Notes under the pieces: generated by a model
Databases searched by the model: none
The model's input: the letters and a program-made list of their open reading frames with translations, nothing else
Told to the model about the DNA's origin: nothing
Shown here: positions 53,644-58,414 of the stretch, piece by piece
Layout of the letters: the number at the start of each line of letters is the position of its first letter
Numbering within the stretch: the first letter of the stretch is position 1
Program-made: the position numbers and the translations under genes
NCBI GenBank assembly: GCA_001464475.1
Contig: LNDX01000001.1
Span: 620,001-684,000 of the forward strand
Source of the DNA: Flavobacteriaceae bacterium Ga0077528
GTDB taxonomy: Bacteria; Bacteroidota; Bacteroidia; Flavobacteriales; Flavobacteriaceae
DNA: 64,000 nucleotides
Direction of reading: 5' to 3'

Positions 53644-54654
53644 ATGGAAGAACGCAATAAAACCTTAGGTGAATTTATCATTGAAAATCAAAATGCTTTT
53701 CAGTATTCCTCAGGAGAATTATCAAGAATTATAAACTCAATTCGACTGGCAGCAAAAGTTGTTAATTACAAAGTAAATAAAGCTGGATTGGTTGATATTG
53801 TTGGAGCAGCTGGAGAACAAAACGTTCAAGGTGAAGACCAACAAAAGCTAGACGTTTATGCCAATGAAGTTTTTATTCAAACGTTAATCAATCGTGAAAT
53901 TGTGTGTGGAATCGCTTCAGAAGAAAATGATGATTTCATTACTGTTGCAGGTTCAGATAATTCTCATAGTAATAAATATGTGGTTTTAATGGATCCTTTA
54001 GATGGTTCTTCTAATATTGATGTCAATGTTTCTGTTGGAACAATTTTTTCAGTTTTTAGAAGAAAAACTCCTGTTGGAACTCCAGTAACAAGTGAAGATT
54101 TTTTACAACCAGGAACACAACAAGTTGCTGCTGGATATGTTATTTATGGAACTTCAACGATGTTGGTTTATACAACTGGTCATGGTGTAAATGGTTTTAC
54201 TTTAAACCCTGCTATTGGAACTTTTTATCTTTCACATCCAAATATGCAGTATCCAAAAGATGGAACTATTTATTCGATAAATGAAGGAAATTATGTGCAT
54301 TTTCCTCAAGGAGTGAAAGATTATATAAAATATTGTCAGCTAGAAGAAGGCGATAGACCTTATACTTCAAGATATATTGGAAGTCTAGTTTCCGATATGC
54401 ATCGAAACATGATTAAAGGTGGAATTTATATTTATCCAACAAGTTCAAAAGCACCAAATGGTAAACTTAGATTGCTTTATGAATGTAATCCAATGGCTTT
54501 CATTGCTGAGCAAGCAGGTGGAAAAGCAATTGATGGTTACAGAAGAATTATGGAAATTCAACCAACAGAATTGCACCAAAGAGTTCCTTTTTTCTGTGGA
54601 AGTTACAATATGGTTAGTAAGGCAGAAGAATTTATGAAAGCATCTAATTTGTAG
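53644..54654 (+). CDS. fbp: class 1 fructose-1,6-bisphosphatase
   Basis: 336 residues from [19 protein letters not shown]; 18 upstream codons overlap the presumed promoter (GATATTTGCAC, one mismatch from consensus). Gluconeogenic step from fructose-1,6-bisphosphate to fructose-6-phosphate. Metal and phosphate sites: [52 protein letters not shown] and [18 protein letters not shown]. Monocistronic. Confidence 0.96.
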
Positions 54655-54712: not shown

Positions 54713-54720
54713 TAAATTTG
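54713..54720 (+). promoter_or_regulatory. -7 box of the GTPase/kinase operon
   Basis: TAAATTTG then CAAAC, 34 bases before the first ATG of the four-gene operon. Confidence 0.6.
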
Positions 54721-54754: not shown

Positions 54755-55117
54755 ATGTCTAAAAATCAATCAAAAGAAACAGAAGCTCCAGCAGTAAACC
54801 CACTAGAATCTGCTCAAAGATTGGAAGCTATCAAAAACCTGATTTTTGGTGAAAATATTCAGCAAATTGATCAGGAATTTCAAGCGATTAAAAATCACAT
54901 TGAAAAAAGAAAAGAGGAATTAGAAGACTTTATTGCTGAAACTCGTAAGGAGTTGAACAGCACTATCGATAATTTAGCAACCGATTTAAACATCAGAATT
55001 ACTGATTTAGAGAACAGTATGAATGATAAAACGGATGAATTAAACCACAAAAAAGTCGATAGAAACTTACTTGGAACGCTTCTAGTTTCTATGGGTGAAA
55101 AGATAATGAAGGACTAA
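54755..55117 (+). CDS. coiled-coil protein, first gene of the GTPase/kinase operon
   Basis: 120 residues, no signal peptide or membrane helix. From about residue 15 to 100 it is almost one charged helix with heptad-like spacing (QRLEAIKNLIFGENIQQIDQ onward). The C-terminal KVDRNLLGTLLVSMGEKIMKD is a more compact tip. No family recognised. Nine bases from the next gene. A scaffold or membrane-surface adaptor for the downstream GTPase is an inference from the operon. Confidence 0.75.
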   Translation: MSKNQSKETEAPAVNPLESAQRLEAIKNLIFGENIQQIDQEFQAIKNHIEKRKEELEDFIAETRKELNSTIDNLATDLNIRITDLENSMNDKTDELNHKKVDRNLLGTLLVSMGEKIMKD

Positions 55118-55126
55118 TTCATTATT

Positions 55127-55918
55127 ATGACAGATTCAGAGAAATTAATTAAGCTCAAAGAACTTCTTCTTAGTGAGGACAGAGATTTTGCGCAAAATAT
55201 TTTACAAAAATTAGATTCTCTTGAAGATACGGTTAACACGCACGAAAAACTTTCTGAAAAAGTAAACCCAATTATTGATAAAAAAATAGACACTTTTGTG
55301 GAAGAAATTCCAACAAAATTAGGTCCAGTTATTGCCGATGCTTTGACCAAATCGCAGGATAAAGTGGTGGAAGCTCTTTTTCCAATCATTGGTAAAATGA
55401 TAAAGAAATACATTCAGCAAGAAATAAAAGCGCTTTCAGATTCTATTAATAGCCAAGTTCAAACCACTTTTTCAATTAAAACCTGGCAACGAAAAGTTAA
55501 AGCGATTTTCACAGGAGTTTCCGAAAAAGAAATCATTTTGAGCGAAATGAATCAAACTTCTGTCGAACAAATTTTTGTTATTGAAAAAGGTTCAGGTTTG
55601 ATTATTTCAAGTGCATCCAAACAAGAAAGTATTGATGAAGATATGATTGCTGGAATGTTAACCGCGATTAAAAGTTTCGTCGAAGATGCTTTCAAAAAAG
55701 ACCAACAAAGCTTAGAATCAATTCAATATGAATTGTTTGAAATTCATATTCAAAATTTTACTTCCTATTATTTTGCAGTTGTAATTTCTGGAGGATTTGA
55801 TGCTTCTTTTAAAAATAAATTAGAAAATAAATTATTCGATATTGCTTCTCATATTAAAACAGATGCTGTCGATAAAGAACATATAACCATTAAGTTAACA
55901 GAATTCATCCATGAATAG
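55127..55918 (+). CDS. cytosolic helical/sensor protein, second gene of the GTPase/kinase operon
   Basis: 263 residues. The N-terminal ~100 residues are amphipathic helices (KLIKLKELLLSEDRDFAQNI; GPVIADALTKSQDKVVEALFPIIGKMIKKYI). The C-terminal ~150 residues read as an alpha/beta sensor: VEQIFVIEKGSGLIISSASKQ, then DMIAGMLTAIKSFVEDAF. This is like the roadblock/longin-type region found before OmpA domains in some envelope proteins, but no OmpA domain or signal peptide is present. Roadblock-like proteins are regulators of small GTPases, which fits the next gene. Overlaps the GTPase gene by eight bases. Confidence 0.72.
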   Translation: MTDSEKLIKLKELLLSEDRDFAQNILQKLDSLEDTVNTHEKLSEKVNPIIDKKIDTFVEEIPTKLGPVIADALTKSQDKVVEALFPIIGKMIKKYIQQEIKALSDSINSQVQTTFSIKTWQRKVKAIFTGVSEKEIILSEMNQTSVEQIFVIEKGSGLIISSASKQESIDEDMIAGMLTAIKSFVEDAFKKDQQSLESIQYELFEIHIQNFTSYYFAVVISGGFDASFKNKLENKLFDIASHIKTDAVDKEHITIKLTEFIHE

Positions 55919-56405
55919 TTCGAAAAAAGTTGTTTTAGTAGGACATTTTGGTGTTGGAAAATCTTCTTTGATGAGGCGATTTGTTCAAAACACTTTTTCT
56001 GATAATTATATTGTTACTATTGGTGTTCATATACTCAAAAAAGAAATTAAAATTGAAGAACTAAATCTAACTTTAGTTATTTGGGATATTGAAGGTAAAG
56101 ATGATATTCAAAAAGTACGTTCGTCTTATCTTTTAGGTACTTCAGGATTTATTTATGTTATCGATCCAACTCGTTCACAAACCTATGAACGATTTAATGA
56201 AGAGATTGATTTTTTAAAAACAACCTATCCAACTTCAAAAATTGTTTCTGTTGCCAATAAATCAGATTTAATTGATATTGAGGAATTTAAAAAATTACTA
56301 GAGCAAAAAAATATTTCAATTGACTATTTTGCAAGTGCCAAAGAAGGAATTGAAGTTGAAAATTTATTTCAAACAATTGGACTGAAAATGGTAAAAAATG
56401 TTTGA
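55911..56405 (+). CDS. Ras-superfamily small GTPase
   Basis: 164 residues, a minimal G domain. G1 Gly11-His-Phe-Gly-Val-Gly-Lys17-Ser18, G2 Thr36 (IVTIGV), G3 WDIEGK (58-63), G4 NKSD (116-119), G5 SAK (142-144). Rab/Ras have W-D-T-A-G-Q at G3; here the catalytic Gln position is Lys63, so intrinsic hydrolysis is probably low or done differently. No lipidation motif. Bacterial relatives include MglA-type switches, but this one lies with a histidine kinase. Overlaps neighbours by eight bases on both sides. Confidence 0.88.
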   Translation: MNSSKKVVLVGHFGVGKSSLMRRFVQNTFSDNYIVTIGVHILKKEIKIEELNLTLVIWDIEGKDDIQKVRSSYLLGTSGFIYVIDPTRSQTYERFNEEIDFLKTTYPTSKIVSVANKSDLIDIEEFKKLLEQKNISIDYFASAKEGIEVENLFQTIGLKMVKNV

Positions 56406-57915
56406 GCAAATTAGAAATAAATATCTCTATAATAAAACTCAAATTGTAGTTTTAGACAAGCAAGGAATTGTTTTGCATTCCGATGATTTGCTTTATAAAA
56501 TTCAGAAACAAACTTCAATTTCTGATTTTCATCCTTTTTTTGAGACCATTATTTCTTTGATTGATTTAGAATACAATGAGTTTACATTTAGCTGTATTCA
56601 TATTGATTATGAAGGAATTAAAAAAACTATTGACGTCATTTTCAATTCAGGTTCAAATAATGAAAATCCGTTTCTAATTTTTATTGATTTTACAGAACAC
56701 TACAATAATTTTCAAAGCATTGCCCAAGAAAAAAATGAATCTGTTCTTAGTTTTCATTTGGCAGAAATAAAAAACCAGCAATTACAATCGGAGAAGAATT
56801 TTAAAAACAAATTCTTAGCCAATGTAAGTCATGATTTGAAAACACCATTAAGTGCTTCGTTATGGTTTTTGGGGATGTTAGAAAAATCTGAAATCACTTC
56901 TTCTCAAAAGGAAATGATTGCATTAATGAAAGAAACAACAAATCATATAAAAGAGCTAGTAGATGATATTTTAGATTTATCAAAAATAGAAATGGGGCAA
57001 ATAAAACTTCAAACTGCTCCATTCGATTTTATTGAAATGCTTTACCATATTGAAAAAATTATAGCTCCAAAAGCAAGAACCAAAAAGCTTGATTTTCAAA
57101 TTGTAAAAGATAAAAACCTGCCAAAATTAGTGGTTGGTGATAAAACTAGAATTGTACAAATTATTATCAATTTGCTAGATAATGCCATAAAATTTACCAA
57201 AAAAGGCAGTGTTGTTCTTTCGGTTGTTGTAAAAGAAATTGAAAGTAATAATGCTACAATTTTGATAAAAGTTGCCGATACAGGAACAGGAATAAAAGCT
57301 AATGAAAAAGGCGAAGTTTTTCAAAGTTTCAAAAAGCTTCACGATTCCAAAAAAATTGATGGTTCTGGTTTGGGACTTTCTATTGTTTCAAATCTATTAG
57401 AATTAATGGGAGGTAAAATAGATTATCAAACAGAATTAAATGTAGGTACCACTTTTGAGATTGAAATTCCTTTAGAAATTAAAGAAAGTGAAGTTGGTAC
57501 TAAACCATTTGAATTTATTGAAATCATCAATAAACTTAATGTCCTTATTGTAGAAGACGATGAAATTAATCAACTTTTATTGATGAAATTGTTGTTAAAT
57601 CATGGTGGATTTAATATTAATATTGCTAATAATGGTTTGCAAGCTATTGAAATGGTAGAACAAAATCCATATGATTTAATTTTTATGGATAAAGAAATGC
57701 CACAAATGGATGGCTATCAAACTACAGCTGTTCTAAGGAAAAATTTAAAAAAAGAAATAAATTCTATTCCAATTATTGGCGTTTCTGGCCATCCTGTTGC
57801 TAATCAAAAGGAGATTTTTGACGCAATGGGTTTTAATGGCTATATAACAAAGCCATACAAGAAAGAAGAAATTTATGAATTGGTTTATGAAGTATTAAAA
57901 CTAAAAAAGTCCTAA
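56398..57915 (+). CDS. cytosolic hybrid histidine kinase / response regulator
   Basis: 505 residues without TM helices. PAS-like sensor (about 12-100), short coiled coil (102-135), HisKA with His145 in NVSHDLKTPLSA, HATPase with N-box IIINLLDNAIKF and G-boxes DTGTGI and GSGLGLSIV. A receiver domain follows with Asp431 in IFMDKEMPQMDGYQ, Ser463 and Lys485. Signal comes from inside the cell, plausibly from the GTPase it is coupled to. No output regulator is adjacent, so phosphotransfer would be to a distant partner. Last gene of the operon. Confidence 0.93.
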   Translation: MFEQIRNKYLYNKTQIVVLDKQGIVLHSDDLLYKIQKQTSISDFHPFFETIISLIDLEYNEFTFSCIHIDYEGIKKTIDVIFNSGSNNENPFLIFIDFTEHYNNFQSIAQEKNESVLSFHLAEIKNQQLQSEKNFKNKFLANVSHDLKTPLSASLWFLGMLEKSEITSSQKEMIALMKETTNHIKELVDDILDLSKIEMGQIKLQTAPFDFIEMLYHIEKIIAPKARTKKLDFQIVKDKNLPKLVVGDKTRIVQIIINLLDNAIKFTKKGSVVLSVVVKEIESNNATILIKVADTGTGIKANEKGEVFQSFKKLHDSKKIDGSGLGLSIVSNLLELMGGKIDYQTELNVGTTFEIEIPLEIKESEVGTKPFEFIEIINKLNVLIVEDDEINQLLLMKLLLNHGGFNINIANNGLQAIEMVEQNPYDLIFMDKEMPQMDGYQTTAVLRKNLKKEINSIPIIGVSGHPVANQKEIFDAMGFNGYITKPYKKEEIYELVYEVLKLKKS

Positions 57916-57932
57916 TTTCTTAGGACTTTTTT
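57903..57932. terminator. terminator overlapping the kinase stop codon
   Basis: AAAAAAGTCCTAA/TTAGGACTTTTTT, 13-bp stem with the 4-nt loop TTTC. The upstream arm contains the TAA. It can also serve the convergent TerB-like gene. Confidence 0.85.
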
Positions 57933-57953
57933 ATATTTCAAAGAATAATTATA

Positions 57954-58385
57954 TTACTTATTCATGTGAGTCATTTCAAAAGTAAATGTGTCTAAATCAA
58001 CACCCATTACTAATAAAGACAATGCTTTGTCAACTATGTAATTTACATTTCCTGGAGTAAAACCTAATGCCAAAGCAAAACGAGTTAAAATTTCTTTTTG
58101 CTTAGGTCCAAGAATGTGATCTGCATAAACCATTCTTGATAAATCATACAAACGTTCCAATCTGTGTGCATAAGAATACGGCGGATTGATTGGGTATTTC
58201 AATGGATTTTCAAGAATTTCTTCATATTCAGCTGGCGAAATTTCTAATCTTACAGCTAGTTTATCTAAAAATTCTTTTTCTTCTTTGCTCAAATCTCCGT
58301 CAGAAGTGGCAACACGAACAATAGCCGAAAAATGACCTTTATTTCTCGTTTTAAATTCGCTATCAAATAAATCTGAAAATGACAT
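57954..58385 (-). CDS. TerB-like (tellurite resistance TerB domain) protein
   Basis: 143 residues from MSFSDLFDSEF; eight upstream codons rejected because the promoter box lies there. All-helical fold with VRVATSDGDLSKEEKEFLDKLA, the acidic metal-binding loop of TerB/DjlA N-domains, and a second helix set LSRMVYADHILGPKQKEILTRFALALGF. The role is unknown; no other ter gene nearby. Confidence 0.8.
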   Translation of the reverse strand: MSFSDLFDSEFKTRNKGHFSAIVRVATSDGDLSKEEKEFLDKLAVRLEISPAEYEEILENPLKYPINPPYSYAHRLERLYDLSRMVYADHILGPKQKEILTRFALALGFTPGNVNYIVDKALSLLVMGVDLDTFTFEMTHMNK

Positions 58386-58406
58386 AATTATAATGGTTTT
58401 ATTATG

Positions 58407-58414
58407 CAAATATA
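58407..58414 (-). promoter_or_regulatory. -7 box of the TerB-like gene
   Basis: TATATTTG on the minus strand, 21 bases before the ATG. Confidence 0.55.

Follow-up and report, generated by a model that had tools for sequence, protein, structure and literature searches.

What links a Ras-like GTPase to a hybrid histidine kinase when the genes for both are packed into one operon? The question is raised by four forward-strand open reading frames (ORFs) of Flavobacteriaceae bacterium Ga0077528, which encode, in order, a coiled-coil protein (gene 1), a longin-domain protein (gene 2), a small GTPase (gene 3) and a cytosolic hybrid histidine kinase (gene 4). The DNA analysed, here called the window, is the 64,000-base stretch at positions 620001-684000 of contig 1 from a 3.45-Mb, 52-contig genome. 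Genes 1 and 2 are 9 bases apart and genes 2-3 and 3-4 overlap by 8 bases each (Table 1), and the packing reported by the initial annotation, with a promoter box upstream, is thus borne out. This is a real, conserved operon of a kind already predicted in 2014, when Group 1 Rup systems were described from genomes (Wuichet & Sogaard-Andersen, PMC4316618); at that date no Rup system had been characterised. The operon is probably a Flavobacteriia form of a Group 1 Rup system, in which the longin protein would set the nucleotide state of the GTPase and the GTPase would act through the N-terminal domain of the kinase. The assignment was made by gene content and by the sequence features of the published description.

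Conservation of the operon was surveyed with gene 2 as the query for all loci, and the counts therefore show how firmly the other genes accompany gene 2. Among named genomes 149 relatives were detected, the best 80 of which were kept (L020-L099), a set biased to Aquimarina and close relatives. The coiled-coil gene, gene 2, the GTPase gene and the kinase N-terminal domain are contiguous in 79/80 of these loci, which, for loci fetched by gene 2 alone, is more than chance and agrees with the conserved four-gene order that had been proposed; the exception, L054, has an extra, shorter GTPase-like frame in between. Gene 1 adjoins gene 2 in 80/80. The closest relative found is a Flavobacterium metagenome-assembled genome (L020), whose gene 2 protein is 97% identical. 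No fusions of the module's domains were found among 2,251 ORFs.

The Pfam Ras match of gene 3 (Table 1) upholds its annotation as a small GTPase, and it is the sole single-domain Ras match in the genome, the other five lying in frames of 297-939 codons. Besides G1 and G3 it has the motifs TIGV (switch I), NKSD and SAK. When a three-member GTPase profile was compared with the PDB, Rab35, Rab1, Rab23 and Rab7 chains came out on top (E 2.7e-34 on), and the best 60 of 950 rows are Rab-type. The position of the catalytic G3 Gln is Lys63 in the window protein; across 84 GTPases (including the window's and leaving out the 109-aa frame of L054) it is His in 38, Asn in 15, Lys in 14, Thr in six, Gln in four and one of seven other residues once each, and the Gln is thus absent from 80/84. 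Rab GTPases carry C-terminal prenylation cysteines; the gene 3 protein, which ends KMVKNV, is without them.

Gene 2 matches no Pfam family above the curated cut-off (8/8 rows), and its fold was predicted with AlphaFold2 from 46 sequences. According to this model, which is of moderate quality and has sub-threshold sequence support, residues 142-263 form a longin fold; block means of the predicted local distance difference test (pLDDT) are 69-84 for residues 141-170 and 201-263. The 50 VIA-align rows listed have Z scores of 10.2-13.2 and root-mean-square deviations of 2.5-4.1 over 108-124 residues, with the aligned range starting at residues 135-146 and ending at 262-263. By their entry titles and chain roles these are longin-type chains, from coats, TRAPP, Mon1-Ccz1 and Fuzzy-Inturned, together with longins of SNAREs and one of Lokiarchaeota. 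Foldseek likewise placed longin-type chains on top (AP2 core chain S, E 1.7e-4; coatomer zeta), with Mon1-Ccz1 and Ykt6 after a group of Rag chains and with Ragulator and LC7 chains lower. Sub-threshold Pfam rows include Fuz_longin_1 in 3/46 close members (best E 0.023) and 2/13 diverse members (best E 0.0012), and Intu_longin_1 in 1/13 diverse members (E 0.05); these two families point to the FUZ/MON1 and INTU/CCZ1 longins, respectively. In sequence searches of the PDB the best row for the diverse gene 2 profile is the TRAPP longin BET5 (E 0.54), and the close-relative alignment gave a single chance row. The most conserved stretch of the protein, G176-F189, corresponds to helix a1 in the longin domain; its charged residues K182, E186 and D187 recur in at least 95% of 83 relatives and in all 46 sequences of the alignment (A4), and distant members have the helix a1 motif (S/A)(G/S/A)ML(T/S)A(I/L/V)(R/K/Q)x(F/L).

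Gene 2 had been annotated as roadblock/longin-like. The longin half of that description stands by VIA-align and Foldseek, and longin is preferred because of the two C-terminal helices and the VIA-align rows. Roadblock membership was rejected, despite the Rag, LC7 and Ragulator chains among the Foldseek rows: Roadblock PF03259 had 0 matches in the genome, in a search that was positive in 3/14 genomes as a control.

Pfam matches of gene 4 to HisKA (3.7e-16), HATPase_c (9.7e-25) and Response_reg (6.8e-22) are in line with the cytosolic hybrid kinase of the initial annotation. In front of these lies a domain modelled by AlphaFold2 at a pLDDT of about 91 (residues 11-97, order b-b-a-a-b-b-b) and followed by a helix at 99-162. 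We call it PAS-like for its element order in the model and for nothing else; PAS membership was not accepted, as no Pfam family occurs in more than 1/28 members and no PDB row lies below E 0.09; when the whole kinase was used for a fold search, the rows were taken up by receivers and kinase cores. Q15, Q110 and N113 are invariant in 93/93 kinase N-termini, a set that leaves out an unrelated second kinase in L025 and frames of less than 340 aa, including a 200-aa protein of L038. Among 12 hand-picked mixed outputs, three sigma-54 activators among them, Q110 is kept in 12/12, N113 in 11/12 and Q15 in 8/12, and Q110 is therefore the best candidate for the invariant Gln noted by Wuichet & Sogaard-Andersen (PMC4316618). 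As a query, the N-terminal domain found 3/395 Bacteroidota genomes, each match at a module; this profile, tuned to the Flavobacteriia type, does not pick up the outputs in the 11 other genomes that have gene 2.

Behind this domain the kinase core varies. Compared with L020, the window proteins are 100% (coiled coil), 97% (gene 2), 95% (GTPase), 85% (kinase N-terminus) and 52% (kinase core) identical, and L020 is without a receiver; the corresponding values for L026 are 98%, 80%, 91%, 84% and 50%. L021-L024 are less alike to the window in most parts, but their cores are 64-73% identical and their kinase lengths fit a receiver. Kinases of 361-364 aa occur in 5/10 of the loci L020-L029 (L020, L025-L028). 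N-terminus and core are only a few points apart in L025 (55/53%) and L028 (58/51%), and L029 and L033 were left out of the identity table, their H-box not having been located by the script. These values look like an exchange of kinase cores behind an N-terminal domain that stays with the GTPase; an old duplication followed by differential loss would leave the same pattern.

Two variants of the kinase arrangement were observed. In 10/80 loci (L032, L034, L035, L036, L037, L041, L042, L043, L046, L048) the hybrid kinase is followed in tandem by another that shares its N-terminal domain, and one GTPase may there feed two kinases. In L038 the GTPase and the N-terminal domain occur twice: the second copy leads into a full kinase, and between the two Rup genes lies the 200-aa protein (L038:9289-9891), which consists of the N-terminal domain and a helical remnant without an ATPase domain, keeps the Gln of position 110 and has Lys for Asn113. 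It is a possible decoy or adaptor. The window's genome also has two candidate histidine phosphotransfer (Hpt) proteins (115 and 117 codons), one of them above the Pfam cut-off.

Distant relatives add wall-binding parts. In ten loci (L108-L117) gene 2 encodes 589-636 aa, the window protein being homologous to the N-terminal part, and OmpA was found in 4/4 of the long proteins scanned (L108, L111, L113, L115). The window protein ends after the longin domain, without membrane helix or OmpA tail. Where gene 2 is short, in L004, L005 and L106, the next upstream gene encodes a PG_binding_1 protein (3/3) with, by reading, an N-terminal hydrophobic stretch. From this pattern the long form of gene 2 has the predicted wall-binding part as a fusion, and those three loci have it as a separate gene; no wall-binding protein gene lies beside the module in the window. 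In L004 and L005 a gene that looks epimerase-like precedes the PG_binding_1 gene. Among L106-L117 the coiled-coil gene is present in 11/12 loci and Rup in 10/12, on the strand opposite to gene 2 in L111, L116 and L117.

In the mechanism that we infer, which covers every interaction, the direction of the signal and the stimulus, the coiled coil and the longin-domain protein would form a cytoplasmic, perhaps envelope-linked platform. The longin domain would bind the Rab-like GTPase and control its nucleotide state, the role that longin dimers play for Rabs, more likely as an exchange factor than as a GTPase-activating protein. GTP-loaded Rup would then dock on the output protein at its N-terminal domain, where Gln110, which heads the signalling helix, would lie at the contact, and docking would switch the kinase, which would signal through its receiver and a phosphorelay. 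The wall-binding parts in relatives suggest, by analogy, the state of the envelope as the stimulus. A broader proposal, which we put forward more tentatively and hold at somewhat less than even, is a bacterial Rab-longin switch: a longin protein tied to the wall, by OmpA or by a separate peptidoglycan-binding partner, would act as exchange factor on a Rab-like GTPase, and this GTPase would drive two-component and sigma-54 outputs that are exchangeable.

Several points weigh against this mechanism. Taken as a whole, the gene 2 model is weak, with a mean pLDDT of 64.5, and helix a1 (residues 171-190, block means 52-55) and residues 191-200 (49) are the least certain parts of the longin domain. 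Rag chains appear from Foldseek rank 8. Sub-threshold Pfam rows outside the longins include DUF6120 (27/46), DUF445 (best E 0.00051) and FlgN among the 46 close members and UPF0058 (0.00019) and Apolipoprotein (0.00068) among the 13 diverse members; as these families score equally or better, the sub-threshold longin rows alone prove nothing. DUF6120 (residues 81-114) and UPF0058 (93-131), the two placed by residue, in single-member tables, fall in the helical region. In SNAREs and coats, too, there are longin domains, which regulate no GTPase. The four GTPases that have the G3 Gln are paired with kinases that keep Gln110, and Gln110 is thus not simply a replacement for it. L112 (G188) and L115 (G071) have longin-OmpA and coiled-coil genes and no Rup in the fetched stretch; their Rup may be located elsewhere or lost.

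The outputs bear on the direction of signalling. Types were named for L106-L111 and L114 among the loci L106-L117: a hybrid kinase with Hpt (L106), a hybrid kinase (L107), a sigma-54 activator (L108, and by likeness L109 and L110), a kinase with a sigma-54 response regulator behind it (L111) and a sigma-54 response regulator (L114). A reverse flow like that of the actinobacterial conservons, in which the kinase would sense or relay, the GTPase would be the output and the longin protein an effector or anchor, is unlikely. The GTPase was posited as the output in conservons by Wuichet & Sogaard-Andersen (PMC4316618), and the conservon accessory protein CvnF8 stimulates the kinase CvnA8; here, however, the last gene may encode a hybrid kinase, a kinase without receiver, one with both receiver and Hpt, or a sigma-54 activator, depending on the locus, which looks like an output set, and the L108 activator, having no receiver, can hardly drive a GTPase by phosphorylation.

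Less likely again is a longin domain that serves for scaffolding or dimerisation and has no effect on the GTPase, with an unlinked protein in control. A shared fold shows no function, and longins do scaffold in coats and SNAREs, but the linkage to the GTPase gene is strict (79/80 loci) and K182, E186 and D187 of helix a1 are conserved. The proposed control of the GTPase by the longin protein is preferred.

The module occupies a constant site. Across 83 loci (the 80 loci, the window, L004 and L005) the fructose-1,6-bisphosphatase gene is next upstream in 69 and the TerB-family gene next downstream in 64. In 13 hand-picked module-less genomes of the window's genus, the bisphosphatase gene is present in 13/13 and is followed by a convergent TerB-family gene in 12/13, at 71-1,214 bases between alignment ends and less than 250 in 8/12; the two genes are 3.3 kb apart in the window. 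As the border genes are adjacent where the module is missing, it appears to have one old site in the family and to have been lost whole from many members of the genus, or it may have been gained at the same site. The module behaves as a unit and is dispensable. With gene 2 as the query, all 36 other genomes searched from the genus came out negative; gene 2 matches occur in 3/60 near genomes (the window's own and two from another family), in 14/395 Bacteroidota genomes and, with a larger alignment, in 87/397 Flavobacteriaceae (own genome counted, a few matches partial or with stops). The polarity, motility or surface-sensing switch first proposed for these genes, with a gliding or type IX secretion system (T9SS) link and MglA/MglB as its model, has a small GTPase, a protein of the roadblock/longin superfold and the presence of the T9SS gene gldN on its side, yet is highly unlikely, because the module is far rarer than gldN (389/397 Flavobacteriaceae), the genome has no Roadblock match and the border genes close up in genomes of the same genus.

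The remaining features concern the ends of the operon and gene 1. The box TAAATTTG ahead of gene 1 fits TAnnTTTG, which we take to be the Bacteroidota -7 consensus, and no well-placed -33 element was seen beside it. The TAnnTTTG promoter claimed initially is therefore present as a box, and its conservation is local: in 9/11 of the closest loci (window, L020-L029) such a box starts 29-61 bases ahead of gene 1, and further out, with 18/81 loci scanned against 8.3 expected from mononucleotide shuffles, conservation ceases. An early start call may account for the missing box of L023. The inverted repeat at the other end is likely a two-way terminator shared with the convergent TerB-family gene, judging from its T tracts. 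The coiled coil of gene 1 was assigned by the look of the sequence and by coiled-coil-type Pfam rows, no row being above the curated cut-off among the 25 of 31 listed. Shared ancestry with the start of gene 2, suggested by a similar-looking motif, was dropped at an hhalign probability of 0.6%.

Table 1. Features of the operon and its borders (window positions)
Feature	Positions	Strand	Remarks
Fructose-1,6-bisphosphatase gene, upstream neighbour	53644-54654	+	Pfam FBPase 3.6e-77; left border of the module site
-7 box, Bacteroidota type (TAnnTTTG)	54713-54720	+	TAAATTTG; read from sequence
Gene 1, 120-aa coiled-coil protein (CC)	54755-55117	+	conserved motif A25-I26-K27-x-L29-I30-F31-G32
Gene 2, 263-aa protein	55127-55918	+	
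Gene 2 residues 1-141, long helical region	55127-55549	+	AlphaFold2 model, low to moderate confidence
Gene 2 residues 142-263, predicted longin domain (b-b-a-b-b-b-a-a)	55550-55915	+	AlphaFold2, VIA-align, Foldseek
Gene 3, 164-aa Ras/Rab-like GTPase (Rup)	55911-56405	+	Pfam Ras 1.1e-28, Arf 1.9e-13
G1 GHFGVGKS	55941-55964	+	gene 3
G3 WDIEGK	56082-56099	+	gene 3; usual catalytic Gln absent
Gene 4, 505-aa hybrid histidine kinase	56398-57915	+	
Gene 4 N-terminal domain (residues 11-97, then start of long helix)	56398-56775	+	PAS-like element order
Invariant Gln110	56725-56727	+	gene 4 N-terminal domain
Gene 4 kinase core, HisKA (136-200) and HATPase_c (247-360)	56803-57477	+	Pfam; kinase-core fold matches
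Gene 4 receiver domain (382-496)	57541-57885	+	Pfam; CheY/DivK-like receiver fold matches
Inverted repeat, T tracts on both strands	57902-57933	.	closes the operon, between convergent genes
TerB-family gene, downstream neighbour	57954-58409	-	Pfam TerB 1.5e-8; right border of the module site

As far as the literature shows, what is new here is the longin domain in the partner protein of Rup and the finding that the nearest solved structures of the GTPase are Rabs; a literature search of partial coverage, with subscription papers mostly outside it, turned up no paper that places a longin next to a Rup GTPase in bacteria. Rup systems seem not to have been tested in bench work so far, and the operon names a testable route for a GTPase to drive a histidine kinase. 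Earlier papers place Rup as the closest prokaryotic group to Rab/Rho/Ras/Ran (PMC4915359), derive longins from an MglB-type domain (PMC3521125), and discuss longin domains as a feature of eukaryotes and Asgard archaea (PMC4917890, PMC10933270), Lokiarchaeum being the first prokaryote found with them and the wider PAS/GAF superfamily being universal (PMC4917890); small GTPase genes of the Asgard archaeon MK-D1 are not generally in operons with longin genes (PMC10933270). The operon described here pairs a Rup GTPase with a predicted longin in bacteria, and provides a system in cultured species, Flavobacterium croceum (L025) among them, for asking whether longin control of Rab-like GTPases is pre-eukaryotic, moved between domains or arose twice. 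If the proposed Rab-longin switch is true, bacteria, too, have the Rab/longin pairing known from eukaryotes and Asgard archaea, and have it in an operon.

The operon can be compared with several known systems. OapA/ArvA of Haloferax was rejected as a relative, its operon partners being given as DUF2073/DUF2072 proteins. MglA/MglB also combines a small GTPase with a partner of related fold, but MglB is a Roadblock protein. The conservons (AGPS, CvnA-D) likewise connect, within four genes, a histidine kinase with a small GTPase and with a small roadblock/longin-superfold protein; they have an MglA-family GTPase, the roadblock protein CvnB, CvnC and membrane kinases, whereas no Roadblock match was found here and CvnC was not searched for. 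The eukaryotic pairs of Rabs and longin exchange factors (Mon1-Ccz1/Ypt7, Fuzzy-Inturned/Rab23, TRAPP/Ypt1) share the Rab-like GTPase and the longin domain and differ in that the GTPase here has neither prenylation cysteines nor the G3 Gln and its partner is a two-component kinase. The statement of the initial annotation that no pathway of this composition has been characterised still seems true, although a predicted one was described in 2014 as the Group 1 Rup system (PMC4316618). In the accessible text of that description the conserved-domain protein often has a membrane helix and OmpA, is of "unknown function" and is given no fold, and sigma-54 activators like those of L108-L110 are not named among the outputs; the window protein is without membrane helix and OmpA and has a longin fold by model. 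The two otherwise share a GTPase without the G3 Gln, a coiled-coil protein, a conserved-domain protein and an output protein with an N-terminal invariant Gln.

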